A stretch of DNA of 64,000 bases, from assembly GCA_002831545.1 (NCBI GenBank), contig CP025095.1, positions 930,001 to 994,000 on the forward strand. The letters are read 5' to 3'. This DNA comes from Streptococcus suis (GTDB taxonomy: Bacteria; Bacillota; Bacilli; Lactobacillales; Streptococcaceae). Below are positions 13,356 to 34,900 of this stretch, piece after piece; position 1 is the stretch's first letter; each line of letters begins with the position of its first letter. The position numbers and the translations under genes were made by a program. Below the pieces are notes generated by a model. It ran no database searches. It saw only the letters and a program-made list of their open reading frames with translations, and was not told the DNA's origin.

Positions 13356-13444
13356 TAGATTATGCTATTTGTCTTACATTCCTAAAAAATTTCAAAAAGG
13401 GAAAATTGTGCACGGAAGAGGGCGGCGTCGTTGAACCCCGAACA

Positions 13445-13475
13445 AACCCACCCCCGTTGAAAAAAGATGGGGGTA
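13445..13475. terminator. Hairpin ACCCCC/GGGGGT between hicA promoter and ArpU remnant
   Basis: CACCCCCGTTGAAAAAAGATGGGGGTATTT forms a short GC-rich stem with a limited T run. It could terminate the rightward or leftward remnant transcripts; only weakly supported. Confidence 0.3.
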
Positions 13476-13485
13476 TTTACGAATT

Positions 13486-13742
13486 TTAGCCCTGACCGTC
13501 TTTATACTGCAATAGTTCCCCATTCTTAAATATACAAGCAAAGTCTAACAAAGCTGTTTGTAATGCTTCGTAAAACATAGACTTTCCCATGTAAAAACTT
13601 TCATAGAGTGCCAAACCTGTTTTCTGACGCTTGATATACTTCTCTGTAAGTATGTCACTGTGTAACTTATCCAAGTTTGAGATAGCTCGCTCTATTTCAT
13701 CCACTTCCTGACTTACTGCGATAGCATTCAGTAATCTATCTT
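13486..13742 (-). pseudogene. ArpU-like phage late-regulator fragment (C-terminal part)
   Basis: The minus-strand frame reads EDRLLNAIAVSQEVDEIERA, then LHSDILTEKYIKRQKTGLALYESFYMG, then MFYEALQTALLDFACIFKNGELL. This resembles the C-terminal half of ArpU-family phage transcriptional regulators (helices ending in ALLDFA-x-x-F/Y-KNGELL). The 15 or so residues before EDRLL are antisense to the integrase remnant and are not ArpU-like. The gene is therefore cut off at about 13742, where the integrase sequence begins on the other strand. Confidence 0.6.
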
Positions 13743-13743
13743 C

Positions 13744-14397
13744 TTGCGTGCTTCGGGTCGTCAGGCGGTCAGGTTTATCGAACCTGAACACTTAAAACAG
13801 TTTCTCGATTATGCTGAACAATTAGCAAGTAGGAACTTTACCAAGTATTACCAATATGTTATTTTTAAGTTATTACTTGCCACTGGTTGTCGTATTGGTG
13901 AATTGTCTGCCCTTGAATTGTCTGATATTGACCTAGAAGCTGGTACAATATCAATCAGTAAAACCTATAGCATGGAACTACACATTATCGGGACAACAAA
14001 GACAAAGGCGGGTACCCGTATTATCAGCATAGACAAAAAAACAGTTCTCTTGCTGAAACAATATCAAAATCGTCAACGCTTGATGTTTCTTGAGGTTGGC
14101 GCGTGTGCTCCTGGTGTTGTCTTTGCGACAACTTTAAGGGAATACCTCCCACAGGTTTCACTACAAGAAGTTATAAATTGTCGGTGTAAGGCTTTGGGTA
14201 TTCCTCGTTTTACTTGTCACGCATTCCGCCATACCCACGCTAGTTTACTGTTGAACGCTGGTATCACTTATAAGGAATTACAATATAGGATCGGTCATTC
14301 CAATATCGCTATGACTTTAGATACATATGGTCACCTATCCAAAGACAAGGAAAAAGAAGCGGTTTTATATTACGAAAAAGCCATGAATAGTCTTTAG
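13744..14397 (+). pseudogene. Tyrosine recombinase (phage/ICE integrase), N-terminal domain deleted
   Basis: A 217-codon frame starting at the catalytic domain. All expected residues are visible: R in TGCRIGELS (about 54), K in TKTKAGTRI (about 88), HAFRHTH (about 160-166), H in RIGHSN (about 184-189) and the nucleophile Y in TLDTYGHLS (about 197). The N-terminal arm-binding and SAM-like domains (usually ~150-170 residues) are missing, and the first codons derive from the junction with the ArpU fragment. Hence it is a deletion remnant, though the catalytic domain could still be expressed. The stop codon overlaps the right direct repeat. Confidence 0.8.
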
Positions 14398-14421
14398 GGT
14401 GAACAAAAAGGTGAACAAATT
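14396..14421. repeat. Right 26-bp direct repeat (att-like) at the integrase 3' end
   Basis: Identical over 26 bp to 12545-12570. Integrases often carry their attachment site right at the 3' end of the gene, as seen here. Confidence 0.65.
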
Positions 14422-14759
14422 ACAAAATCAACTAAATACAAGGTGCTAGAAACCGCATGAAATCAACGTTTGAAAGGATAAAAGAAAAAATATTATGAAA
14501 ATCTGTGGATTGGATAGTCTAGTGAATTAGAAATAGGACATATCTAATGCTCAATAAAAATCAAAAATAGAATACTAAGGTCAATTTCTATGTGTAAAAT
14601 TTCAATATCTAAGCTCAGATTGGAAATCATAGATTTTGACTAGCCATCTCATTTCGACAACTTCAAAATTGAAATTCTCTATATACAATTTGATTAGTAG
14701 ATAGCTAATTTTGATTTTAAATGAGTATTAAAATTACTAATCTCTAAAGTGAGTTGCAA
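14422..14759. other. AT-rich intergenic stretch without recognisable features
   Basis: 338 bp between the integrative remnant and a putative regulator remnant. Both strands are full of stops. I see no promoter or terminator pair that convinces. Confidence 0.5.
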
Positions 14760-14990
14760 TTAATTTGTGAATGATAATCGGCTCAATTCCTTGAGTTTTC
14801 GGCATTTTTGGTAGGTATCATCAGAATAGTGTCTGTCTACATGGCGATGTTTAAAAAGCAGATAAAGGAGTTCATGTAATTTTGCTTTTATCGTGATGTC
14901 GAAATAGATACCTTCTTCTTGGATTCTGGAACTCTAGTCATCAATGAACTTGTTGCACTTGACTTTACAACGTGCGGTACAAAGAATGTA
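14760..14990 (-). pseudogene. Degenerate gene remnant, possibly an AraC-type regulator
   Basis: On the minus strand a frame ending at TAA (14762-14760) reads SSRIQEEGIYFDITIKAKLH, then ELLYLLFKHRHVDRHYSDDTY, then QKCRKLKELSRLSFTN. An in-frame stop lies just upstream, preceded by KVKCNKFIDD. The helical IKAKLHELLYLLF segment is like the region linking the cupin and HTH domains of AraC-type sugar regulators, but the HTH is absent. Identification is tentative; that it is a decayed coding segment is more likely than its family. Confidence 0.35.
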
Positions 14991-14999
14991 CTAAAATAC

Positions 15000-15028
15000 T
15001 TGAAAATCGGGGGGGGGTGAGGTATAAT
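15000..15028 (+). promoter_or_regulatory. Promoter of the giant adhesin with a G9 tract in the -35/-10 spacer
   Basis: TTGAAA (15000-15005), then ATC, nine G (15009-15017), TGAGG, then TATAAT (15023-15028). The spacer is exactly 17 bp with nine Gs. Gain or loss of a G would move it away from the optimum. This is the geometry of known phase-variable promoters with homopolymer spacers. The transcript would have a leader of about 90 nt before ATG 15123. Confidence 0.8.
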
Positions 15029-15122
15029 TAACTCAGAGTCTTGGTGACTTGAAACTAGGGAAAACTGATTTTTTGAACGCTTCTTTTTTCTCTGGTAATA
15101 TTTATTCAAAAGGAGTGACGAT

Positions 15123-18100
15123 ATGAATCGTTCGAAAAAGAAATCATTTGATTGGTATGGAGCGCGCCAGCGTTTCTCTATCCGTAAATATCATATTGGT
15201 GCTGCAAGTGTTCTGTTAGGTACGACCTTGGTTCTTGGTACAGGAACGATTGTAGGCGCTGAAACAGGAGTCAATGGGGATGGAGCTTCAAACGGGCAAA
15301 TTGTACCTGGAAATGGTACTGGAACATCCGATGGCACGCAGCCACAAGGGGATAATCAAGGAGACAATAGCTCAGGAGTTCAGACTGGTAATACAACAAA
15401 CTCAACTGCGAATGTCCAGCCTGCAGATGATACAGGTTCAGCAAGTAGCCAACCAGTAGGAACCTCACGTTCAGCAAATACTGGAACACAAGGAGATGGT
15501 TCGACTAACCAACCAGTAGATGAACCGATTATCAAATTTCCGACTCAAGATGACCAAAGACAACCTGCTGGTTACCAGAAAGTAGAGTTTTCCACTTATT
15601 TTTCGACATTGGTTTTTGAAGGAAAACCTGGTGAAATTCAAAATGGAAAATCTAAAAAATTTGTTTTTTGGGTTAAGACTGGAACTACATGGGGAGCATT
15701 AAAGAGGGACCCGCAATTTAGAATGCCTAAATATACAGTAGGCGACGGCGATTTTATTTTAGGTTATGCTAGAAGTGTTAGCGGAAACCTACAGTACATT
15801 GATTTCAATTCTCTCGATGACACTGCTATTGTAGACACATGGCAGATCAATACCGTTGTGGATTACATTGTTGGCGATGTTAAAGACGGAAAAACATTTG
15901 AAGAATACATGAACTCGGGGTCGTATGCTAAATTCCATATTCCTCAATTCCACGGAATTACATTGAATGCTAACGGTGGCACAATTGACGGCAAAGCGAA
16001 AAAAGCTTTTTATGTGGCTCATGAGCATGTACAATGGGGTAATCCGCGAGTAACTTCAAAAATTGATGCTGCATCCAATAAAGCATCCAGAGATGGTTAT
16101 ACTTTTGTTCGTTGGCAAACAGCTACAGGAGGAGGAATACCTACTTCGGGACAAATTGACACGATTGAATTTACTGCTGTATGGTTAAAACATCCAGAAG
16201 AAGCGGTAAAAGTTTTTAACCCAGCACAACTGAGTGAGACTGATAAAACAGAAGTTGCAGACCTGATTCGTAGTGTCAATACTGACTTAAAGGATAGCAT
16301 TCAAGAAATAACTGTAGCGAATAATGGTGATGCTACGGTTAGATTTACAACGGGTGAAGAGCGGACTATTTCAGGAGCGAGTTTGGTATCGGACAACTCT
16401 GCAGAACAACGCGCTAAAGCTGAGGAAGCTATCTCCGATGCAGTATTGCAAAAACAGGATGATATTGCAAAAAGTCAGCTAACGGCAAAAGAGCAACAAG
16501 ATAAGTTAGATAAATTGAGAGAACTTCAAGAATCTATAGAAGAGCAGATTGATGGAGCGACCTCTGAAGATGCTCTTGATAAGATCGTTGAAGATGGTAA
16601 GAATAGCATTGAAAACTTTGATTTAACGAGTGCTACTAAGAAAACAGCTGCTAAGCAAGACTTGGAAACAGCCTACAATGCTGAGAAAGCAGAAATTGAA
16701 AATTCTGTACTTACAGCTGACGAAAAAGCCACTAAACAAGCTGAGTTGACTACAGCTAAGGAAAATGCTATAAAAGCAGTTGATGATGCAAAAACAGATT
16801 CGGCTGTTGAAGGGGCTCTTAAAAATGGTAAAGCGACTATTGAGTCTACATACACAGCGATTATTAAAATCCCAAGTTCTGCGTCGGAACAAGCACCTAA
16901 GGGCTACGTAACTGTAACATTCGGCAAACATGATTATACTCGAGGTTTCACATTAGGTACTCAAACTGGCGAATCGGTAAAAGTATTTGTCAAAGAGAAT
17001 GTGAAATGGGGAGAATTGTTAGATGACCCTGCTTGGCAATGGCCGACTGTAAAAACAGATGAAGGCGACACGGTTGTTGGTTGGTCTGTGAATGATTATA
17101 ATTATAAACCAGGAAATGCTTTTGCACGTGACAATTATAAGGATACTGATGTCACTAATATAACCTTGTATCCAAACGTCGTTTTTGAAGTTGAAGATGT
17201 AGGAGGAAACGGGACTAAAGAAGGTTATTTAGCACAATATGGTCCAGATGAGCAAGATAAATGGATTTTTATCACGTTTGATGCTGATCAAGGTCAACTC
17301 AGTGGCTCAAAACAATCTAAAATGGTAGCTGTGAGCAAAAATCTCTATTCTATTGATTTTAGTAATAAAAAGTTTAAAGAAAAAGTTGAGTCGCCTACTC
17401 TTCAGGGACATACCTTTGTGCGTTGGCAAACAGATGCAGGTGAAGTATTACCTAAGAGTGGTGAAATCACAACTGACACAACCTATAAGGCACTGTATCT
17501 TGCCCATCCAACAGACAAGACTGTCGTCTTTGATGCCAATAAACTAACTGATACTGAGAAGGATAGTTTAAAACAAGCGATTAACAACGCGAATACAGAT
17601 AGCGCTAACCTCATTCAAAGCATTACCGTATCTGATACAGGTGAAGCAACAGTAACCTATAATGACGGTACTGTCGTAACAGTTCCAGCATCACACCTCA
17701 TCAATGAAGATAAAGCGCCTGCAAGAAATCTTGCGAAAGCGGAAATTGATAAAGCATCAAAAGAGAAGGTTGCTGAAATCAATGCTTCTGCCCTTACTGA
17801 TGAGGAGAAAGCAGCCAAACTGACGGAAGTTCAAGAAGCAAAAGACCGAGCTAATAATGCAATTGATAATGCTACTACTACTGAAGACTTAACTAAGGCT
17901 ATTTCGGATGGTACAGCAGCGATTGAAGCTATCAATACAACTACAAGTCCTAAGAAAACAGCTGCTAAGCAAGCTCTTCAAGATGCCTACAATGCTAAGA
18001 AAGATGAGATTGCTAAGTCAGCCTTGACCGCAGAAGAAAAAGCAGTGAAACAGGCAGAATTGGATAAGGCTAAAGAAGATGCTGAAAATGCTATTGTCAC

Positions 18101-21100
18101 AGCAACAGATAATGCAGGAGTAGACACAGCACTAACTAACGGTCAATCCGCAATTTCTGGTATCGACACAAGCACAAGTGCTAAGAAGGATCAAGCTAAG
18201 GAAGAACTTAAAGCGGCAGCAGACGATGCTAAGAAAGCTATCGAAGCTAACGACAATTTGACAGATGCTGAGAAACAAGCAGCTAAGAAAGCCGTAGATG
18301 ATGAAGTAGCGAAAGCAGAAAAAGCCATCGACGCAGCAACCAAAGCTGATGAAGTAGATGCAGCAACTCTTGCAGGCACGAAAGCTATCGCAGAAGATGT
18401 TGTTGACGCAGCTAAACTAGACGCTAAGAACAAGATTGACAAAGATGTAGAAGCAGCTAATGCAGCTATTGAGTCAAATCCAAACTTGTCAGAAAAAGAA
18501 ATTGCATACGCTAAGACAGAAGTAGCTAAAGCAGCAGAAGACGCTAAGAAAGCTATCGATGCAGCAACAACTCCAGAAGCAGCTCAAGCAGCAGAAGAAG
18601 CTGGTACGGCAGCTATCGCCGCAGATGTTCTTGACGCAGCTAAGCAAGACGCTAAGAACAAGATAGCTAAAGACTTGGCAACTGTAGAAGCAGCAATCGA
18701 TGCTAACTCAAACTTGTCAGAAGACGAAAAAGATGCAGCGAAACTTGCAGCTCAGGCTAAGGCAGCGGAAGCAGTAGCAAACATCGAAAAAGCAACGACA
18801 CCAGAAGCAGCTCAAACCTTAGAAGATGCAGCTGTAAAAGACCTTGCAAATATCGAGATTAAAGCGGCTTACGATGACGCAGTGAAAGCAATCGAAGCAG
18901 CGGACAACTTGTCAACAGCAGCTAAAACACAAGCCTTAGAAGACTTGAAGAAAGCTCGCCAAGCAGCAGAAGAAGCTATTAAGACGGCATCAACGGCTGA
19001 TGAAGTTGCCAAAGGTGCACTTGATGGTTTGAAATCTATTGCTAAAGTTGAAGCTAAAGCAGCAGCTGACGATGCAAAAGCAGCTATCGCACAAAATTCA
19101 AACCTGACAGATGCAGAGAAGAAAGTCTACACAGATGCAATCGATAATGCGTTGAAAGATACAGAAACTAAGATTGACGCTGCAACGGATGCAGATACTG
19201 TTGATGCTGAAACAGTTCTTGCTCAAAAAGATATCGCTAAGCAAGAAGTAGCCGCAGCTACAGCTGATGCTGTGAAAGGTATTGAAGCAAATACCAACTT
19301 GACAGATGCTGAAAAAGATGAATACAAAGCAACTGTTACCAAAGCAGCTGAAACAGCTGAAAAAGCTATTACAGATGCAACAACAGCAGCTGACATTCAA
19401 AGCAAGACCTTCGATGCTACTCAAGATGTTGCTAAAGAAGAAGTAAAAGCTGACGCAGCTGATGCAATCGCGGGTATCAAGGCCAACGACAACTTGTCAG
19501 ATACTGCCAAAGAAGAAGCAATTGCAGCCATTGAGGAAGCAAGAGATACCACTCTTGAAAACATCGAAAACGCGAAAACAGCAGCAGATGTTGACACAGC
19601 GACACTTGACGCTGAAAAAGCAAATGCTAAAGCAGAAATCAAGGCAGCAGCCGATGACGCTAAGAAAGCCATCGACGAAAACGCAAACTTGCCTGAGTCT
19701 GATAAGAACGCTCTTAAATTAGCGATTGATGCAGAAGTTGCAGCAACAAACCTTGAGATTGACAATGCTAAGACAGCAGAAGAAATCGACGCAGCAACTC
19801 TTGCAACAGAAAAATCAATTGCTAAGGCAGAAGTCAAAGCCGCTGCAGAAGATGCATTGCAAGCTATCGATGAAAATGCTAACTTGACAGACGCTGAGAA
19901 AGCAAAAGCGAAAGCAGATGTCTACGTTGAATTGAGCAAGGCTGAAAAAGCAATCGATAAAGCAACTACAGCAGATGCTATCGACAATGCAACGCTTGTA
20001 GGTGAAAAAGCATTCGCTACTGCAGAACTTGAAGCAGCCGCAGAAGATGCTAAGAAAGCCATCGATGCCAACACTCACTTGACAGACGACCAGAAGCAAG
20101 CTGCTAAGGATGCAGTCGATGCTGAATTGGCAAAAGCTAAGGAAGCCGTTGTAGCAGCGAAAACAGCTGATGAAGTTGACGCAGCTACACTTGTAGGTGA
20201 GAAAGCAGTCGCTAAGGAAGAAATCAAGGCAGCCGCAGAAGATGCTAAGAAAGCTATCGATGCTAACAGCAACTTGACAGACGACGAGAAAGCAGCCGCT
20301 AAGGCAGCTGTAGATACTGAAGTAGCGAAAGCTAACGAAGCTATCGACAAGGCAGCAACAGCCGATGCAGTAGACACAGCTACACTCGTAGGTGAGAAAG
20401 CAGTCGCTAAAGAAGAACTTAAAGCGGCAGCGGACGATGCTAAGAAAGCTATCGACGAAAACGCAAACTTGACACCAGAAGAAAAAGCAGCAGCTAAGAA
20501 AGCCGTAGATGATGAAGTTGCTAAGGCAGAAAAAGCCATCGACGCAGCAACTAAAGCAGAAGAAGTAGACGCAGCAACTCTTGTAGGTGAAAAAGCAGTC
20601 GCTAAAGAAGAGCTTAAAGCGGCAGCCGACGATGCTAAGAAAGCCATCGACGCAAACGCAAACTTGCCTGAGTCTGAGAAGACTGCTCTTAAATTAGCGA
20701 TTGATGCAGAAGTTGCAGCAACAAACCTTGAGATTGACAATGCTAAGACAGCAGAAGAAATCGACGCAGCAACTCTTGTAGGTGAAAAAGCAGTCGCTAA
20801 AGAAGAAGTCAAAGCCGCTGCAGAAGATGCATTGCGAGCTATCGATGAAAATGCAAACTTGACAGACGATGAGAAAGCAAAAGCGAAAGCAGATGTCTAC
20901 GTTGAATTGAGCAAGGCTGAAAAAGCAATCGATAAAGCAACTACAGCAGATGCTATCGACAATGCAACGCTTGTAGGTGAAAAAGCAGTCGCTAAAGAAG
21001 AACTTAAAGCGGCAGCGGACGATGCTAAGAAAGCTATCGACGCAAACGCAAACTTGACACCAGAAGAAAAAGCAGCAGCTAAGAAAGCCGTAGATGATGA

Positions 21101-24100
21101 AGTTGCTAAGGCAGAAAAAGCCATCGACGCAGCAACCAAAGCTGAAGAAGTAGACGCAGCAACTCTTGTAGGTGAAAAAGCAGTCGCTAAAGAAGAGCTT
21201 AAAGCGGCAGCAGAAGATGCTAAGAAAGCCATCGACGCAAACGCAAACTTGCCTGAGTCTGAGAAGACTGCTCTTAAATTAGCGATTGATGCAGAAGTTG
21301 CAGCAACAAACCTTGAGATTGACAATGCTAAGACAGCAGAAGAAATCGACGCAGCAACTCTTGTAGGTGAGAAAGCAGTCGCTAAAGAAGAAGTCAAAGC
21401 CGCTGCAGAAGATGCATTGCGAGCTATCGATGAAAATGCAAACTTGACAGACGATGAGAAAGCAAAAGCGAAAGCAGATGTCTACGTTGAATTGAGCAAG
21501 GCTGAAAAAGCAATCGATAAAGCAACTACAGCAGATGCTATCGACAATGCAACGCTTGTAGGTGAAAAAGCATTCGCTAAGGAAGAACTTGAAGCCGCAG
21601 CTGACGATGCTAAAGCAGCTATCGACGCCAACGACAACTTGACACCAGAAGAGAAAGCAGCCGCTAAAGATGCAGTAGATGCAGAAGTAGCGAAAGCTAA
21701 CGACGCCATCGACGCAGCAACTAAAGCAGACGAAGTAGATGCAGCAACTCTTGTAGGTGAGAAAGCAGTTGCTAAGGAAGAACTTAAAGCGGCAGCGGAC
21801 GATGCGAAAGCAGCTATCGACGCCAACGACAACTTGACAGATGCTGAGAAACAAGCGGCTAAAGATGCAGTAGATGCAGAAGTAGCGAAAGCTAACGAAG
21901 CCATCGACGCAGCAACCAAGGCTGACGAAGTTGAGACAGCAACTCTTGCAGGTGAGAAAGCAGTCGCTAAAGAAGAACTTAAAGCGGCAGCAGAAGATGC
22001 TAAGAAAGCTATCGATGCCAACGACAACTTGACGCCAGAAGAGAAAGCAGCAGCTACGAAAGCCGTAGATGCAGAAGTAGCTAAGGCTAACGACGCAATT
22101 GATGCCGCAACTAAGGCTGACGAAGTAGATGCCGCAACTCTTGCAGGTGAGAAAGCAGTCGCTAAAGAAGAAGTCAAGGCAGCCGCAGAAGATGCTAAGA
22201 AAGCAATCGAAGCTAACGACAACTTGACACCAGAAGAGAAAGCAGCCGCTAAGGCAGCAGTAGATGCAGAAGTAGCGAAAGCTAACGACGCAATCGATGC
22301 AGCAACTAAGGCTGACGAAGTAGACGCCGCAACTCTTGCAGGTGAGAAAGCAGTTGCTAAGGAAGAACTTAAAGCGGCAGCCGACGATGCTAAAGCAGCC
22401 ATCGATGCCAACGACAACTTGACAGACGCTGAGAAACAAGCCGCTAAAGATGCAGTAGATGCAGAAGTAGCTAAAGCTAACGAAGCCATCGACGCAGCAA
22501 CTAAAGCAGACGAAGTTGACGCAGCAACTCTTGCAGGTGAGAAAGCAGTTGCTAAAGAAGAAGTCAAAGCCGCAGCCGACGATGCTAAGAAAGCCATCGA
22601 TGCTAACGACAACTTGACAGACGCTGAGAAACAAGCAGCTAAAGATGCCGTAGATGCAGAAGTAGCGAAAGCTAACGAAGCTATCGATGCAGCAACTAAA
22701 GCTGATGAAGTAGATGCCGCAACTCTTGCAGGTGAGAAAGCAGTCGCTAAGGAAGAACTTAAAGCCGCAGCCGACGATGCTAAGAAAGCAATCGATGCTA
22801 ACGACAACTTGACAGACGCTGAGAAAGCAGCCGCTAAGGCAGCAGTAGATACTGAAGTAGCGAAAGCTAACGACGCCATCGATGCAGCAACTAAGGCTGA
22901 CGAAGTTGACGCAGCAACTCTTGCAGGTGAGAAAGCGGTCGCTAAGGAAGAACTTAAAGCTGCAGCCGACGATGCTAAGAAAGCAATCGACGCCAACGAC
23001 AACTTGACACCAGAAGAGAAAGCAGCAGCTAAAGATGCAGTAGATGTAGAAGTAGCGAAAGCAAACGACGCCATCGATGCAGCAACTAAAGCAGACGAAG
23101 TTGACGCAGCAACTCTTGCAGGTGAAAAAGCAGTCGCTAAGGAAGAGCTTAAAGCGGCAGCAGCCGATGCGAAAGTAGCAATCGATGCCAACGACAACTT
23201 GACAGACGCTGAGAAACAAGCAGCTAAAGATGCAGTAGATGCAGAAGTAGCTAAAGCTAACGAAGCTATCGATGCAGCAACTAAAGCAGACGAAGTTGAC
23301 GCAGCAACTCTTGCAGGTGAGAAAGCAGTTGCTAAGGAAGAACTCAAAGCAGCAGCAGAAGATGCTAAGAAAGCCATCGACGCCAACGACAACTTGACAC
23401 CAGAAGAGAAAGCAGCCGCTAAGGCAGCAGTAGATGCAGAAGTAGCGAAAGCAAACGAGGCAATCGATGCAGCAACTAAAGCTGACGAAGTTGAGACAGC
23501 AACTCTTGCAGGTGAGAAAGCAGTCGCTAAGGAAGAACTTAAGGCAGCAGCAGACGATGCTAAGAAAGCAATTGACGCCAACGACAACTTGACAGACGCT
23601 GAGAAACAAGCAGCTAAAGATGCCGTAGATGCAGAAGTAGCTAAGGCAGAAGAAGCCATCGATGCAGCAACATCAGCTGACGAAGTTGAGACAGCAACTC
23701 TTGTAGGTGAGAAAGCAGTCGCTAAAGAAGAACTTAAAGCGGCAGCAGAAGATGCGAAAGCAGCTATCGATGCTAACGACAACTTGACACCAGAAGAGAA
23801 AGCAGCCGCTAAGGCAGCAGTAGATGCAGAAGTAGCGAAAGCTAATGACGCAATCGACGCAGCAACTAAAGCAGACGAAGTTGAGACAGCAACTCTTGTA
23901 GGTGAGAAAGCAGTCGCTAAGGAAGAGCTTAAAGCGGCAGCAGAAGATGCGAAAGCAGCTATCGATGCTAACGACAACTTGACACCAGAAGAGAAAGCAG
24001 CCGCTAAGGCAGCAGTAGATGCAGAAGTAGCTAAGGCAGAAGAAGCCATCGATGCAGCAACTAAGGCTGACGAAGTTGACGCAGCAACTCTTGCAGGTGA

Positions 24101-25241
24101 GAAAGCAGTCGCTAAGGAAGAACTTAAGGCAGCAGCAGACGATGCTAAGAAAGCAATTGACGCCAACGACAACTTGACAGACGCTGAGAAACAAGCAGCT
24201 AAAGATGCAGTAGATGCATCAGCAGCAGCGGCAAATAAAGCAATTGACGGTTCAACATCTTCAGTTGAAGTTCAAGCTGCTAAAGATAAGGGCAACGCTG
24301 CTATTGCAGAAAATGTTCTTGATGCAGCTAAGCAAGGTGCTAAGAACAAGCTTATGGAAGAAGCAGATAAAGCGAAAGCAGCTATCGATGCAAATCCAAA
24401 CTTGACACCAGAAGAGAAAGCAGCAGCTAAGGCTGAAATCGATAAAGCTGTTGAAGAAGCAATTATTGCTATCAATGGTGCTGGAACTCATCATGCATTG
24501 GGTGAAATCAAACTTCCACTTTCAGCTCTTATCAAACCAGTTGTAACAGTAACACCAGTACTTGATCCAAACAACTTGACTGAAGAAGAAATTGCTCGCA
24601 TCAAGGCTCTCCTTGAAGAGAACAATACATTCCCAGAAGGAACTGAAATCATCGTTTCTAAAGATGCTTCTGTGTCAATCAAGTACCCAGATGGTACTAT
24701 CGACTTGGTATTGCCAGCAGAGATTGTGAAACAGGCAGATACAACTGCTCCTGCGATTACAGACGATGCTAAAGGTAATATTGTAGTTGCTCCAACTAAA
24801 GAGGCTGTTGAATTTGTTGTTACCTACGTAGATAACAATGGTAAGGCTCAACTTGTTGTTGTTACTAAGGGTGCAGATGGTAAATGGACAACAACTGCTA
24901 AAGCTGTGATTGTAGATCCTGTTACTGGTCAAGTTATCATTCCAGGTTCTGCTATCAAGCCAGGAACAGTTGTGACAGCTTACTCTAAAGATATGGCTGG
25001 AAATGTTTCAGACTTGAATTCGGCAGAAGTTGAAGCAGTAGATGCAAATAATCCTGCAGCAGGAGTGAAAGTGAAATCAGTTACTTCTACTTCAAATGCC
25101 AACAAGTCAACTAAGAAAGCTAAGCAATTGCCAAATACAGGTGAAAAAGCAACTTCAGCAACTTCACTTGGATTAGCAGTTCTTGGAATGGGATTAGCAC
25201 TTTTCGCAGCAAAGAGAAAAAAAGACGAAGAAGAAGCTTAA
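15123..25241 (+). CDS. Giant LPXTG-anchored surface protein with ~30 DUF1542-like repeats (3372 aa)
   Basis: A YSIRK-type signal peptide (RFSIRKYHIGAASVLLG, residues 17-33; cleavage near 48) is followed by a low-complexity G/T/S linker to about 135. Two related N-terminal modules each end in a bacterial Ig/InlB-B-repeat-like element (GYTFVRWQTATGG near 327, GHTFVRWQTDAGE near 763). A long helical stalk from about residue 1025 to 3035 has 65-residue units such as ELKAAADDAKKAIDANDNLT and AEVAKANEAIDAATKADE. These match DUF1542/FIVAR-type rods of Ebh-like adhesins. A beta-rich domain follows (about 3120-3320), then the sortase signal LPNTG at 3336-3340, a hydrophobic helix and a KRKKDEEEA tail. 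The ribosome site AAAGGAG precedes the ATG. Role: a long fibrous wall-linked adhesin; ligand unknown. Confidence 0.9.
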   Translation: MNRSKKKSFDWYGARQRFSIRKYHIGAASVLLGTTLVLGTGTIVGAETGVNGDGASNGQIVPGNGTGTSDGTQPQGDNQGDNSSGVQTGNTTNSTANVQPADDTGSASSQPVGTSRSANTGTQGDGSTNQPVDEPIIKFPTQDDQRQPAGYQKVEFSTYFSTLVFEGKPGEIQNGKSKKFVFWVKTGTTWGALKRDPQFRMPKYTVGDGDFILGYARSVSGNLQYIDFNSLDDTAIVDTWQINTVVDYIVGDVKDGKTFEEYMNSGSYAKFHIPQFHGITLNANGGTIDGKAKKAFYVAHEHVQWGNPRVTSKIDAASNKASRDGYTFVRWQTATGGGIPTSGQIDTIEFTAVWLKHPEEAVKVFNPAQLSETDKTEVADLIRSVNTDLKDSIQEITVANNGDATVRFTTGEERTISGASLVSDNSAEQRAKAEEAISDAVLQKQDDIAKSQLTAKEQQDKLDKLRELQESIEEQIDGATSEDALDKIVEDGKNSIENFDLTSATKKTAAKQDLETAYNAEKAEIENSVLTADEKATKQAELTTAKENAIKAVDDAKTDSAVEGALKNGKATIESTYTAIIKIPSSASEQAPKGYVTVTFGKHDYTRGFTLGTQTGESVKVFVKENVKWGELLDDPAWQWPTVKTDEGDTVVGWSVNDYNYKPGNAFARDNYKDTDVTNITLYPNVVFEVEDVGGNGTKEGYLAQYGPDEQDKWIFITFDADQGQLSGSKQSKMVAVSKNLYSIDFSNKKFKEKVESPTLQGHTFVRWQTDAGEVLPKSGEITTDTTYKALYLAHPTDKTVVFDANKLTDTEKDSLKQAINNANTDSANLIQSITVSDTGEATVTYNDGTVVTVPASHLINEDKAPARNLAKAEIDKASKEKVAEINASALTDEEKAAKLTEVQEAKDRANNAIDNATTTEDLTKAISDGTAAIEAINTTTSPKKTAAKQALQDAYNAKKDEIAKSALTAEEKAVKQAELDKAKEDAENAIVTATDNAGVDTALTNGQSAISGIDTSTSAKKDQAKEELKAAADDAKKAIEANDNLTDAEKQAAKKAVDDEVAKAEKAIDAATKADEVDAATLAGTKAIAEDVVDAAKLDAKNKIDKDVEAANAAIESNPNLSEKEIAYAKTEVAKAAEDAKKAIDAATTPEAAQAAEEAGTAAIAADVLDAAKQDAKNKIAKDLATVEAAIDANSNLSEDEKDAAKLAAQAKAAEAVANIEKATTPEAAQTLEDAAVKDLANIEIKAAYDDAVKAIEAADNLSTAAKTQALEDLKKARQAAEEAIKTASTADEVAKGALDGLKSIAKVEAKAAADDAKAAIAQNSNLTDAEKKVYTDAIDNALKDTETKIDAATDADTVDAETVLAQKDIAKQEVAAATADAVKGIEANTNLTDAEKDEYKATVTKAAETAEKAITDATTAADIQSKTFDATQDVAKEEVKADAADAIAGIKANDNLSDTAKEEAIAAIEEARDTTLENIENAKTAADVDTATLDAEKANAKAEIKAAADDAKKAIDENANLPESDKNALKLAIDAEVAATNLEIDNAKTAEEIDAATLATEKSIAKAEVKAAAEDALQAIDENANLTDAEKAKAKADVYVELSKAEKAIDKATTADAIDNATLVGEKAFATAELEAAAEDAKKAIDANTHLTDDQKQAAKDAVDAELAKAKEAVVAAKTADEVDAATLVGEKAVAKEEIKAAAEDAKKAIDANSNLTDDEKAAAKAAVDTEVAKANEAIDKAATADAVDTATLVGEKAVAKEELKAAADDAKKAIDENANLTPEEKAAAKKAVDDEVAKAEKAIDAATKAEEVDAATLVGEKAVAKEELKAAADDAKKAIDANANLPESEKTALKLAIDAEVAATNLEIDNAKTAEEIDAATLVGEKAVAKEEVKAAAEDALRAIDENANLTDDEKAKAKADVYVELSKAEKAIDKATTADAIDNATLVGEKAVAKEELKAAADDAKKAIDANANLTPEEKAAAKKAVDDEVAKAEKAIDAATKAEEVDAATLVGEKAVAKEELKAAAEDAKKAIDANANLPESEKTALKLAIDAEVAATNLEIDNAKTAEEIDAATLVGEKAVAKEEVKAAAEDALRAIDENANLTDDEKAKAKADVYVELSKAEKAIDKATTADAIDNATLVGEKAFAKEELEAAADDAKAAIDANDNLTPEEKAAAKDAVDAEVAKANDAIDAATKADEVDAATLVGEKAVAKEELKAAADDAKAAIDANDNLTDAEKQAAKDAVDAEVAKANEAIDAATKADEVETATLAGEKAVAKEELKAAAEDAKKAIDANDNLTPEEKAAATKAVDAEVAKANDAIDAATKADEVDAATLAGEKAVAKEEVKAAAEDAKKAIEANDNLTPEEKAAAKAAVDAEVAKANDAIDAATKADEVDAATLAGEKAVAKEELKAAADDAKAAIDANDNLTDAEKQAAKDAVDAEVAKANEAIDAATKADEVDAATLAGEKAVAKEEVKAAADDAKKAIDANDNLTDAEKQAAKDAVDAEVAKANEAIDAATKADEVDAATLAGEKAVAKEELKAAADDAKKAIDANDNLTDAEKAAAKAAVDTEVAKANDAIDAATKADEVDAATLAGEKAVAKEELKAAADDAKKAIDANDNLTPEEKAAAKDAVDVEVAKANDAIDAATKADEVDAATLAGEKAVAKEELKAAAADAKVAIDANDNLTDAEKQAAKDAVDAEVAKANEAIDAATKADEVDAATLAGEKAVAKEELKAAAEDAKKAIDANDNLTPEEKAAAKAAVDAEVAKANEAIDAATKADEVETATLAGEKAVAKEELKAAADDAKKAIDANDNLTDAEKQAAKDAVDAEVAKAEEAIDAATSADEVETATLVGEKAVAKEELKAAAEDAKAAIDANDNLTPEEKAAAKAAVDAEVAKANDAIDAATKADEVETATLVGEKAVAKEELKAAAEDAKAAIDANDNLTPEEKAAAKAAVDAEVAKAEEAIDAATKADEVDAATLAGEKAVAKEELKAAADDAKKAIDANDNLTDAEKQAAKDAVDASAAAANKAIDGSTSSVEVQAAKDKGNAAIAENVLDAAKQGAKNKLMEEADKAKAAIDANPNLTPEEKAAAKAEIDKAVEEAIIAINGAGTHHALGEIKLPLSALIKPVVTVTPVLDPNNLTEEEIARIKALLEENNTFPEGTEIIVSKDASVSIKYPDGTIDLVLPAEIVKQADTTAPAITDDAKGNIVVAPTKEAVEFVVTYVDNNGKAQLVVVTKGADGKWTTTAKAVIVDPVTGQVIIPGSAIKPGTVVTAYSKDMAGNVSDLNSAEVEAVDANNPAAGVKVKSVTSTSNANKSTKKAKQLPNTGEKATSATSLGLAVLGMGLALFAAKRKKDEEEA
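18196..24210 (+). repeat. About 30 tandem 195-bp repeats encoding 65-residue helical units
   Basis: The period is exactly 195 bp over much of the block (for example GCAGTCGCTAAGGAAGAACTT at 22740 and the next unit at 22935). The sub-repeat ANDNLT followed by PEEK or DAEK alternates. A higher-order 585-bp (three-unit) duplication is visible: 20400-20984 and 20985-21569 are nearly identical. Units from about 21570 on are more homogeneous than those before 20000, indicating recent expansion at the 3' end. Confidence 0.9.
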
Positions 25242-28973: not shown

Positions 28974-31900
28974 ATGTTAGATAAGAAAAAAATAAATTTT
29001 CGTCGTAAGCGGATGACGACACCTGATAAACATTACCGCTACTCGATTCGTAAGTTTAATGTGGGCATCGCTTCGGTAGCCATCGCAGCCTTCATGTTTT
29101 TAGGTAATGGTGCGGTATCTGTTTCTGCAAATGATTTGGCTTCTAACGAGGAAGTGATTCCTACTAGTGGTCCAGTAAGTGAGGAAGATCTGTCATCTTC
29201 CGCTGAGATAAAAGAATCGGAGCTAGTGCCTTCGTCTACACCTAATACTGGAACTCCTGCGGAAACACCTGCACAGTCGGAAAAGGTTGTTACAGAAGAG
29301 ACAGTTCCAGTGGCCGAGAATGCAGATTCCCTTCCAACAAACGAATCACAGCAAGAAAGCTTGAGCACAAAAGAAAGTGACGATGCCTTAGCAGCAGCCA
29401 AGAAAGTTCTCGAAGAAGTCATCTCAGAAGCGGAAGTCTTGTCAGCCGATGCTCTTCGCAAAGCAGCTAAGTCAACAGCAGACACAAGCTCGCTTCAATC
29501 AGCAGCTAATGCAACCAAAGCAGCAGCAGAAGCAGCCAACCAAGTCTTTGCGGATGAACATGCCAGTCTTGAAGATATCAATGCCCAAATCACAGCTATC
29601 CGTACCGCAGTAGGAAACTTGGTTCCAGAGCTGACAAGCTTTACAGGAACGGAAGAAGTGACGGTTATGCTAGCTGCAACGACATCGGGGGCAGCAGATG
29701 CCAACCAAAGCGGTATTGACGCTATTTCTGCTAATAACGGACAATACACCGTTACCAGTGAGCATACAAACTTTAAGTGGACGGATATACTGAAAAATCC
29801 TATCATTGCACTAAAGATGACGGATGGAACCTATAAGTATAAGAAGTTTAGCGGTACGGTTACCATGGATATTGCAAAGGCGGCATATGTGGCAGACGAA
29901 TTTGTAGATGCTGCGACATACAAAACGGCAAACGGTGCATTGCAGGCAACCGATAAAGTATATATTATTCAGGAATCGGACTTTACCTCCGATCCGACTT
30001 CTACCTCTATTGAGGAAAGCTATGACCTGACGAAATTCCACCATAGACAAAATCTGGTTTTAGGTGGAGATAATTTTTTTGAAGGGGCTACTATTGAAGA
30101 TGCGGCGTCTGATAGTGTACTTATAGCATTGGCACGACCGGGCTCCTTTGTATCGGAGATTGAGTTTAAGAATGCGAGTAATCCGGGTACCCCATCGATA
30201 TATTTGCCGGAAGAAAATAATACGTTGTTGGTGGTGGACAATATCCGTGAAGCTGTGGAGCAGTCAGGACCAAATGACCAGTCTTATACGAATTTTGGTT
30301 TGTTCTTGTCGCATATAGCTGTAAGCGATGATAAGGTCAATAAGCCAAATACCGTCATGAATTTACCGAAAGGCGTGGAGGTGATCTTTGCAAATTCGAG
30401 TGGTCAGCAGACAACCTTTGCTGGGGCTATGAACGAGATGATGGATAGACTCAAATATAATGATGCTGAGTGGACGGTTTTAAATCCTCAACAGAAATTA
30501 AAATTTAAGTTTATCGTAAAAAAAGATGAACAAATTATCCAAGAAGATAAAAACTGGAGAGAAATTACATTACATGTGTATAATACTCTCGATGCAGTGA
30601 AGAATCTGGTGAAAACAACGCTCGAAAACACAGAAAATAACTTTGCAGAGGGCATCGTAGACAATATCGATTTCTCTGGCTTGCCAGAAGTTATGAAAAA
30701 TGAAGCGGTAGAGATGGAGATAAAATATCCGAATGTGGACGGAAGTACACCGCAAGACGGAGCAATGCCACAATTTTCGAATCTGGGAAATAAGCGATAT
30801 GACTGGGTAAATAAGGACGGAGAAACAAGCAACGGTAATCACGCTACATCACCAGCACGATATTTCCCGTATGACATGGATTTATTCCAGGGAGATGGCG
30901 ATGACATTACTGAAGCGCTGCTGGGATATACACCTTATATCACAGATTACAAGCCTCCTAGGGATTCTGGGGAGACTGCGAAGATTAAACCTAGTGATCA
31001 TGATCAGGAATTGATAGACTATTACAGCCTAGGTCCTATCTTTACAAAAACCATGTTTACTCATTATTTTACTCCGGAACCGGGAGGCGTGAATGAAAGT
31101 TATTGGAACTCGTTGGTACAGGATATACCTATCCCGCAGCTTGACTTTGAGCCTAAGGTTAATCTGGATATCGTAACCCTTTCCGATAATCCACAACCGA
31201 ATCCAAAGGGAACAGTGAAGATTGTCTACAAGGCTTTGAATGCTGATGGTACAGATGTAGATAGCAGTGTGGTTCTAAGAGCAGATGTCACTGACACAGA
31301 GGATGCAGCGGTAGGTACACCATGGAATGCCAAAGAGACGGGTGTTGACCATGATAAGGATACTGCTACAGATTCTATCGACGAAAGACCTGAAACATTT
31401 ACGACGCAAGCGACAGAAACAAATCCAAGTCGTGAATATAAACTGGTATCTGCAAAAACAACGGTACAAACACCGACAGATGCAGCTCCAGTTACTGTTA
31501 CAGATGATGCACAACTCGAAGGTCAAGTAATAGAAGGAACCACTACCGTAACCTATTATTATGCCTTGGTGCAGGAACAACCAGCCACTTCAAGAGAAGT
31601 GAAAGGTGATGTTGTCATCAAGTATGAGGATACTGCTGGAACAGAAATCAAAGGTCAGTTGAAAGATACTGATCAAGGAGTGGTGGCGACGTACACCACC
31701 CCAAGTCGTCGCTATATCAAGGTTGACAATCAAGTAACCTACCTGGACTCAGAACCAGCTGAAACAGTGGAGTTGTCTAATCTTGCATACAATGCCGACC
31801 AGACTCGTGAGGATGGAACGGTTGAGAAACCAGCTACAATTGAATCTGCTGGTAAGACCTACCGCTTTATCAAGCTCAAGGACGATTCAGCAACAGTAAC

Positions 31901-34900
31901 AGGTTTAGTCACAGAAGCGACAAAAACGGTAACCTATGTCTATGCCCCAGAACAGACACGTGAAGTACCAACCGAAAAAACTGGTAGTGTTATTGTGGAG
32001 TACAAGTTGGAGGGCAGTGAAACACCTGAAAAACCAGAAGGTACAAAACTTCAGGCTGACTTCAAAGACACAACGGATCAATTGGTATCGACTTCAACCG
32101 TTACTGAAACCTACTACGTGGATGCAAATGGTGTGGAAAAGGTAACCAATACCAGCGAACCTGTTGTAACGCTAACAAATGCGACCTATGAAGTGACTAA
32201 GGCCGAAGCGCCAGATGTCTTGACAATTGGTGGGAAGACGTACCACAAAGTTCGTGTAAATGGCACAGAAAATGGCACACTTCCAGCAGGTGAGACAAAA
32301 GTTACTTACTACTATGCGGAAGAGCAAGTAGAGGAAGGTGTAATCGAAGAAAAAGGGAACGTCACAGTCAAATATGAGACAGAAGGTGGCGCACCCTTGA
32401 AACCAGCCTATAAGGATAGTGAAAACGTCCTTGTCTCAAGCACTCCAACGACAAGACGTTATTACCTAAAAGATGGCAATAAGGTTTACTTAGATGAGCA
32501 ACCAGTTCGTGGCACAACAACAAAAACTGATGCGACATACGATACTCGTGAAGACAAATCAGAAACGGGTGGAGTAAACGAAAAACCAGCTACTCTTACA
32601 GATGAATCAGGTAAGAAATACCACCTCATCAAGACTAAGGACAAAACCCCAGAGAATGGAACCTTGCCAGCAGGTGATACAGTCGTAACCTATGTCTATG
32701 CCCCAGAACAGACACGTGAAGTACCAACCGAAAAAACTGGTAGTGTTATTGTAGAGTACAAGTTGGAGGGCAGTGAAACACCTGAAAAACCAGAAGGTAC
32801 AAAACTTCAGGCTGACTTCAATGACACAACGGATCAATTGGTATCGACTTCAACCGTTACTGAAACCTATTACGTGGATGCAAATGGTGTGGAAAAGGTA
32901 ACCAATACCAGCGAACCTGTTGTAACAAATACAAATGCGACCTATGAAGTGACTAAGGACGAAGCGCCAGATGTCTTGACAATTGGTGGGAAGACGTACC
33001 ACAAAGTTCGTGTAAATGGCACAGAAAACGGCACACTTCCAGCAGGTGAGACAAAAGTTACTTACTACTATGCGGAAGAGCAAGTAGAGGAAGGTGTAAT
33101 CGAAGAAAAAGGGAACGTCACAGTCAAATATGAGACAGAAGGTGGCACAACCTTGAAACCAGCCTATAAGGATAGTGAAAACGTCCTTGTCTCAAGCACT
33201 CCAACGACACGCCGTTATTACCTAAAAGATGGCAATAAAGTTTACCTAGATGAGCAACCAGTTCGTGGCACAACAACAAAAACTGATGCGACATACGATA
33301 CTCGTGAAGACAAATCAGCAACGGGTGGAGTAAACGAAAAACCAGCTACTCTTACAGATGAATCAGGTACTACGTATCACCTCATCAAGACTAAGGACGA
33401 AACTCCAGAGAATGGAACCTTGCCAGCAGGTGATACAGTCGTAACCTATGTCTATGCCCCAGAACAGACACGTGAAGTACCAACCCCATCAAATGGTAGT
33501 GTCATTGTGGAGTACAAGTTGGAAGGTAGTGAAACCACTGAAAATCCAGAAGGTACAAAACTTCAGGCTGACTTCAAAGACACAACGGATCAATTGGTAT
33601 CGACTTCAACCGTTACTGAAACCTACTACGTGGATGAAAATGGTGAGGAGCAGGTAACCAATACCAGCGAACCTGTTGTAACGCTAACAAATGCGACCTA
33701 TGAAGTAACTAAGGACGAAGCGCCAGATGTCTTGACAATTGGTGGGAAGACGTACCACAAAGTTCGTGTAAATGGTACAGAAAACGGCACACTTCCAGCA
33801 GGTGAGACAAAAGTTACTTACTACTATGCGGAAGAGCAAGTAGAGGAAGGTGTGATCGAAGAAAAAGGGAACGTCACAGTCAAATATGAGACAGAAAGTG
33901 GCACAACCTTGAAACCATCCTATAAGGATAGTGAAAACGTCCTTGTCTCAAGCACTCCAACGACAAGACGTTATTACCTAAAAGATGGCAATAAGGTTTA
34001 CTTAGATGAGCAACCAGTTCGTGGCACAACAACAAAAACTGATGCGACATACGATACTCGTGAAGACAAATCAGAAACGGGTGGAGTAAACGAAAAACCA
34101 GCTACTCTTACAGATGAATCAGGTACTACGTATCACCTCATCAAGACTAAGGACAAAACTCCAGAGAATGGAACCTTGCCAGCAGGTGATACAGTCGTAA
34201 CCTATGTCTATGCCCCAGAACAGACTGAAATAATCCCTACAGAGAACAAAGCCAAGGTAACTGTAAATTACTATATCTTGGGTACAAGCACACCTCTTCA
34301 ACCAAGCTATGAAGATACTCCGGCTACTAAGATTTCGGAGACGGTAACAACCAACACCTATTATCTAGATGCCAATAATGAGCGTGTGCCAGTAGGTAAT
34401 CCGGCTGTAGTAATCAATCCAGTTGATCCAGCGGTGTCTTATGATACAACTGAAACCAAGAATGGTAAAGAAGAACGTCCAACCACACTTGAGTCAGGTG
34501 GCAAGACCTACCACTTGGTAGAGGCAGCGACAACCTTCACGGAAGGTACAGGCGTCAGCGGAACCTTGACCAAGGATACAGTTGTAAATTACTACTATGC
34601 GGAAATCAAGGAAGAAGTCACAACCGAACCAACTAACGGTTCTGTAACGATTAAGTACGAAACAGTTGACGGCAAAGAGCTTCAGAGTCCATTCCTAGAT
34701 ACACCAAGTACTGAAATCAGTAGCATCACAACTAAGCGGAAGTACTATGAGTACAATGGCGTGAAGACCTATGTAGGTGAAGCTGAAGTTACTCCAAGTA
34801 CAAAGGATGTTCCATATAACACGACAGAAGACAATGAGAAACCTGAAACCTTGCAAAAAGGTGGTAAGACTTACCAACTTGTTGCAGTGAAAGCTGGCTC

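Follow-up and report, generated by a model that had tools for sequence, protein, structure and literature searches.

The window analysed here is a 64 000-bp stretch of Streptococcus suis (positions 930001–994000 of a 2 719 245-bp genome assembled as one contig). At 15000–15028 of this window, 94 bp upstream of the open reading frame (ORF) of a giant surface protein, lies a promoter whose spacer contains a run of nine G residues (G9; Table 1). Both hexamers and the 17-bp spacing holding the nine Gs were read directly and were also matched by pattern, as the original prediction had claimed. Its wording that the G tract exactly fills the spacer was too strong: the tract does lie inside the spacer and makes up 9 of its 17 bases.

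The region 14390–15130 was scanned for promoter-like sites by comparison with the consensus. Five were found (3.7 expected from shuffling), the top one being that at 15000–15028 with 11 of 12 matches; the other four had 9 of 12. The pattern TTGAAA-N12-22-TATAAT occurs three times in the window against 0.26 expected, and G7 gives three overlapping matches against 1.8 expected, a count that is not remarkable on its own. A homopolymer between recognisable −35 and −10 hexamers, the arrangement of porA/fetA-type promoters, is thus found here by direct reading, pattern search and consensus scan.

The downstream protein was analysed with Pfam. It carries a YSIRK signal, aRib domains (three stretches), DUF1542 domains (30 stretches), a GA module and an LPXTG anchor. 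All three features of the giant DUF1542 YSIRK/LPXTG surface-protein class (YSIRK signal, DUF1542 repeats and LPXTG anchor) are therefore present, and its nearest relatives carry the name DUF1542 domain-containing protein of Streptococcus suis. A huge surface protein had been proposed as the target of the promoter; this holds, the protein being predicted from its YSIRK and LPXTG signals to be surface exposed.

Long G tracts in the S. suis genome

Across the genome, G runs of at least seven number 31 (53 overlapping 7-mers): 21 G7, six G8, two G9, one G11 and one G15. Runs of G or C in a 400-kb sample numbered 688, 109, 9 and 1 at lengths 4, 5, 6 and 7, so the two G9, the G11 and the G15 lie well outside this decay. 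All four tracts of G9 or more are located outside ORFs and just upstream of surface-protein genes, and 19 of the 27 G7–G8 tracts are inside ORFs on either strand (ORF cut-off at least 120 aa genome-wide and at least 80 aa within the window). Of the three remaining tracts of at least G9, two (G11 and G15) show the same −35/G-tract/TATAAT layout as the tract of the window. A G8 tract at about 1079889 (locus L013) is situated in the 5′ part of an apparent coding region, where a short upstream frame is out of phase with a long one downstream (465 aa, by eye resembling a membrane protein); it is possibly a translational contingency tract.

Table 1. Coordinates of the promoter at 15000–15028, of its target gene and of related G tracts (window positions unless stated otherwise)
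Feature	Position	Strand	Basis or remarks
−35 hexamer TTGAAA	15000–15005	+	Sequence; 11/12 consensus matches jointly with its −10
17-bp spacer ATC-G9-TGAGG	15006–15022	+	Sequence
G9 homopolymer, length-variable element	15009–15017	+	Sequence; comparison of copies
−10 hexamer TATAAT	15023–15028	+	Sequence; pattern search; consensus scan
5′ leader, including the presumed start of transcription; AGGAG as ribosome-binding site, 7 bases 5′ of ATG	15029–15122	+	Sequence; start presumed
3372-aa cell-wall-anchored giant protein	15123–25241	+	ORF list; Pfam domains
G9 tract	190972 (genome)		Before YSIRK-type protein; hexamers unclear
G9 tract of the window	945009 (genome)		Before 3372-aa DUF1542 protein
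G8 in 15-bp promoter spacer	1049641 (genome)		Before NAD-dependent epimerase family gene, GalE-like by eye
TTGAAA-ATCT-G11-TAGGG-TATAAT	1489871 (genome)		Before YSIRK-type protein
TTGATT-TTTC-G15-TATAAT	1577369 (genome)		Before 3230-aa protein; pilus cluster by eye only
Capsule promoter L188, G10	1479–1508 (of L188)	+	CpsA then CpsB-type genes
Capsule promoter L202, G9		−	CpsA then CpsB-type genes
Capsule promoter L175, G8		−	CpsB-type gene first

Recurrence of the layout in the genus

The layout was searched for in 284 Streptococcus genomes, one per species, using the pattern TTGA-N4-14-G7-N0-9-TATAAT. The controls were the same pattern read backwards and a version in which C7 replaced G7. 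The layout gave 55 matches in 37 of the 284 genomes; neither the reversed pattern nor the poly-C version gave any match in the same set. All 55 loci were read (51 fetched and four from the S. suis genome itself). Their tracts comprise eight G8, 14 G9, 11 G10, six G11, seven G12, one G13, five G14, one G15 and two G18. The spacers measure 15 bp (4 loci), 16 bp (4), 17 bp (10), 18 bp (11), 19 bp (10), 20 bp (10), 21 bp (2), 22 bp (3) and 27 bp (1). The dinucleotide TC directly precedes the tract in 40 of the 55 loci, and in 28 the tract directly abuts the −10 hexamer.

Ordinary TTGACA/TATAAT sites of the S. suis genome were used for comparison (41 matches, about 11 of them expected by chance from the reversed control). 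Among sites with spacers of 15–20 bp, 24 of 27 ordinary ones had 16–17 bp, against 14 of 49 in the poly-G class (P of about 6 × 10−7, for rows that are related and not independent).

Without any promoter condition, a tract of G10 or longer is present in 92 of the 284 genomes. A sample of 30 such tracts was drawn from the first 30 genomes for which a locus had been fetched, each genome contributing one, and flanking hexamers were sought with at most two mismatches in the −35, at most one in the −10 and a spacer of 14–28 bp. Hexamers flanked 11 of the 30 tracts (0 of 30 in the mirrored arrangement). A large share of the long G tracts, though not all, is thus accounted for by promoter spacers. 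At two loci, L352 and L353, a long G tract stands between short inverted repeats (TGAAAATTC-G10/11-TATTTTCA), possibly in the loop of a hairpin and not in a promoter, and several further TTC-G(n)-TA tracts were seen without promoter hexamers.

Tract length in related copies

A 281-bp query around the promoter of the window was compared with the 284 genomes by DNA search. Matches were found in 77 of them, six places in five genomes covering nearly the full query; most of the other matches comprised only the leader or the part coding for the signal peptide. Three copies share the spacer ATC-G(n)-TGAGG and carry G10, G10 and G14, for G9 in the window. All six aligned copies retain the two hexamers. 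In L215 and L220 similarity ends some 12 to 30 bp before the −35, and the sequence farther upstream is unrelated; promoter and gene are retained, as if the two moved as one cassette.

Two loci were considered a close pair when both 150-bp flanks were at least 90% identical. The G-run length differs in 11 of the 14 close pairs, which share members and are not independent. Examples are L214 (genome G252) and the window (G14 vs G9, flanks 99% and 100% identical), L184 and L192 (G10 vs G8, 100% and 100%), L185 and L218 (G8 vs G11, 97% and 95%) and L209 and L011 (G14 vs G15, 100% and 96%). Spacer length also differs in 11 of the 14 pairs, a different set of 11, and is equal in L192/L194, L208/L217 and L213/L010. 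Variation in length within conserved flanks, as in porA/fetA-type tracts, is therefore seen between species representatives. The tract had been described as prone to slippage, which these differences support; a fixed G9, named beforehand as what would speak against slippage, was not found among the species representatives, each species being represented by one genome.

That the homopolymer merely happens to lie in a promoter, with a fixed length and no regulatory use, would fit the unremarkable G7 count of the single window. This is scarcely credible given the 55 matches against none in 284 genomes, the position of the four longest S. suis tracts before surface genes and the length differences despite near-identical flanks.

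Genes downstream of the poly-G promoters

By our own reading, 43 of the 55 promoters precede genes for proteins with a surface or secretion signal. The signals counted were YSIRK, LPXTG, pilin-like sequences, plain signal peptides and a long signal peptide of the serine-rich-repeat type; the proteins with the latter we take to be serine-rich-repeat proteins. Capsule operons follow three promoters (L188, L202 and L175), and other or unclear genes follow nine (L182, L195, L200, L201, L207, L210, L216, L219 and L012). The CpsB-type gene of L175 passes the Pfam cut-off but, at 382.6, falls short of the 400 required by NCBIfam. A hydrophobic N-terminus was present in 36 of 45 downstream ORFs and in 31 of 149 neighbouring ORFs; ten of the 55 sites, with no ORF by the rule used, were dropped from this test, and a target ORF was allowed to be open or to be shorter than the controls.

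Interpretation of the tracts

It is probable that the G9 tract is a contingency element mediating slipped-strand, transcriptional phase variation by spacer length. Slipped-strand mispairing during replication would add or remove Gs, and each gain or loss would alter the −35/−10 spacing of a sigma-A promoter together with the helical phase of the hexamers. Transcription of the adhesin gene would be strongest near 17 bp (G9, the state found in the assembly); other lengths would weaken sigma-A contact, and transcription would change stepwise with the Gs gained or lost. A clonal population would then hold cells with differing amounts of adhesin. The promoter layout, its recurrence above the controls, the length variation between species and the bias towards surface genes were observed; we infer that the tract slips within a clone, that it does so reversibly, and how far and in which direction transcription would respond. 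The device would operate at YSIRK proteins, a pilus-type gene and an epimerase gene in this genome, and at surface-protein and capsule operons in other streptococci. Since the same device stands at several loci, we propose that the coats are varied combinatorially and at random, through errors in copying the runs. The original interpretation is supported, and it underestimated the scale, with several such loci in this genome and a class of them across the genus.

Several observations weigh against this reading. The layout was absent from 247 of the 284 genomes, 19 of the 30 sampled long tracts had no promoter flanks, and the S. suis tract at 190972 has no clear hexamers. A 17-bp spacer occurs in only 10 of the 55 promoters, spacers of 17–20 bp being about equally common; either many assemblies were made from weak states or the optimum of a G-containing spacer is not 17 bp. 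Among the close pairs, G runs are equal in 3 of 14 (L192/L194, L208/window and L221/L010), and the G12/G11 difference between L213 and L010 is due to a substitution beside the run and not to an indel. Each species contributed a single genome to the comparison, and homopolymer counts in assemblies can be wrong; differences of one base are weakened by this more than those of two to five bases. Finally, poly-C is absent from the spacer position throughout the 284 genomes, which pure spacer slippage does not predict because the duplex is the same either way.

The latter point bears on a second explanation, in which the G tract has a sequence- or structure-specific role, as the site of a regulator or as a G-rich non-template strand affecting the open complex, and the length variation is a by-product. 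The restriction to one strand (55 poly-G against 0 poly-C at the same spacer position), the TC preceding 40 of the 55 tracts and the 28 tracts abutting the −10 would fit such a role. Spacing by itself explains neither the restriction of G to the coding strand nor the preceding TC. Against it, tracts from G8 to G18 and spacers from 15 to 27 bp do not suit a single fixed binding geometry. In addition, ten promoter tracts in three genomes (the five of S. suis, 190972 included, three of genome G084 and two of genome G161) were placed by local GC skew, and all carry G on the leading strand. A bias between replication strands may therefore explain why G is found only on the coding strand, and would be a simpler reason for it. 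Strand restriction had been considered as proof of a function of the non-template strand, an argument weakened by the ten out of ten tracts. A specific role of the sequence is considered unlikely.

In a further alternative the tract would be unstable and transcription barely altered, either with another promoter driving the gene or with sigma-A tolerating the change in spacer. The frequency of spacers of 18–20 bp in the class would agree with tolerance. The other promoter-like sites of the region have only 9 of 12 matches, with the total at the level of shuffled sequence, and the −35 and −10 are retained in all six aligned copies though the far-upstream sequence is unrelated in L215 and L220. 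This alternative is thus quite improbable, and phase variation by spacer length is retained as the preferred reading.

Genomes outside Streptococcus

That the whole order shares the layout was considered and rejected: 1 of 249 non-Streptococcus Lactobacillales genomes was matched, against four for the reversed control. With a stricter pattern, 7 of 398 genomes of a phylum sample (the S. suis genome included) were matched against two for the control, a slight excess. A scan of named genomes, which had no control of its own, returned at least 120 stretches (L052–L171). Among 80 of the matches listed, many came from uncultured Bacilli and Clostridia and a few from Saccharibacteria, Treponema and others; at least two of the stretches listed (L135 and L161) repeat Streptococcus loci by sequence. 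Two poly-G spacer promoters were seen in one stretch, for example in L083, L145 and L151.

Among the matches listed (n = 125, only tracts of at least G8 being sought), 30 tracts were G8, 54 G9, 19 G10, 13 G11, seven G12 and two G14, with a maximum at G9 and no fall from G8. A hydrophobic N-terminus was found downstream in 62 of 80 of these, against 153 of 511 for the comparison ORFs, 45 of the 125 sites being dropped for lack of an ORF. The wider reading was kept because, among the matches listed, lengths peak at G9 and hydrophobic N-termini follow, which suggests that the device occurs in additional lineages as well. We tentatively put forward, as a real possibility, that Streptococcus has a phasome in which coding-strand poly-G spacers vary giant adhesins, pili, serine-rich-repeat-type proteins and capsule operons, and that such promoters have evolved or been retained in a wide range of mutually unrelated, host-associated bacteria (uncultured Bacilli and Clostridia, Saccharibacteria and Treponema), mainly before secreted proteins, as a general bacterial route to diversity of the coat.

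Surroundings of the adhesin gene

A phage-type integrase gene at 13744–14397 lies directly upstream of the adhesin gene, and the stretch 13382–13761 resembles, at 83% identity, an ArpU-type gene from a plasmid record of S. suis. The adhesin gene may sit beside the remnant of a mobile element (13382–14397). Five phage records matched the neighbouring part of the window, all from S. suis hosts. No copy of the promoter was found in the phage and plasmid records, which gave one short match each, only to sequence preceding the promoter. Another giant YSIRK/LPXTG protein of the window (28974–36077, 2367 aa, with MucBP) has no G7 tract in front. On the strand opposite the DUF1542 repeats (21279–24172, −), open frames of 776 and 896 codons are probably a by-product of repeat composition.

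Relation to known systems

In Neisseria, fetA has a poly-C tract between −10 and −35 and porA a T-C-G tract, whose gonococcal form is listed as (T)8-11 C (G)6-8 T (PMC5320596). In both, as in S. suis, the promoter of a surface-protein gene has a homopolymer in its spacer, and theirs varies in length between strains. The porA repeat also resembles the TTTTTC-G(n)-T of streptococcal promoters, with the same T-C-G order. The system described here differs in belonging to a Gram-positive organism and in occupying many unrelated loci in one genus, capsule operons included; unlike the poly-C of fetA, the streptococcal class has only coding-strand G in the pattern search made.

In Cutibacterium acnes, also Gram-positive, the homopolymer HPT_37 lies between −10 and −35 and the spacer differs between two strains, with a 2-fold difference in expression that, according to its authors, the spacer change might explain (PMC4746626). 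HPT_37 differs in being short (C5/C7), at one locus and before a metabolic gene. The pil1 locus of Streptococcus gallolyticus also switches a streptococcal surface structure by a slipped-strand repeat, not by promoter spacing: GCAGA repeats in the gene of a leader peptide act through attenuation (PMC3894217). The features of such attenuation, a repeat in a leader-peptide frame plus a terminator, were not found at 14390–15130, where the tract is upstream of the −10 and no terminator-like site was detected. S. suis itself has phase-variable type I and III methyltransferases (PMC8125046, PMC6265453), whose effects are genome-wide and not due to local promoter slippage. In Group A Streptococcus, a poly-C tract of mga changes the length of Mga, according to the title of the paper (PMC10330708, cited in PMC11868660); this is likewise streptococcal homopolymer slippage affecting a surface protein, in a tract taken to be coding and not a promoter spacer.

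Full-text searches of the open PMC literature, subscription papers being outside its scope, turned up no paper on poly-G promoter spacers in Streptococcus, as judged from titles and the starts of abstracts. Janulczyk and others reportedly described simple sequence repeats in Streptococcus agalactiae in about 2010, so a partial prior description is possible. The kind of element, a homopolymer in a promoter spacer, is known; its use in Streptococcus, at many loci and before capsule operons, did not appear in the open literature searched.

Significance

The question can be tested from existing data, by comparing tract lengths in deposited reads with expression data. If the tracts switch expression, a streptococcal culture would be a mixture of cells with different amounts of adhesin, pilus or capsule, and one genome sequence would record one state only. 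This would bear on the choice of vaccine antigens, on differences in surface-protein expression among isolates of the same genotype and on colonisation by zoonotic S. suis.
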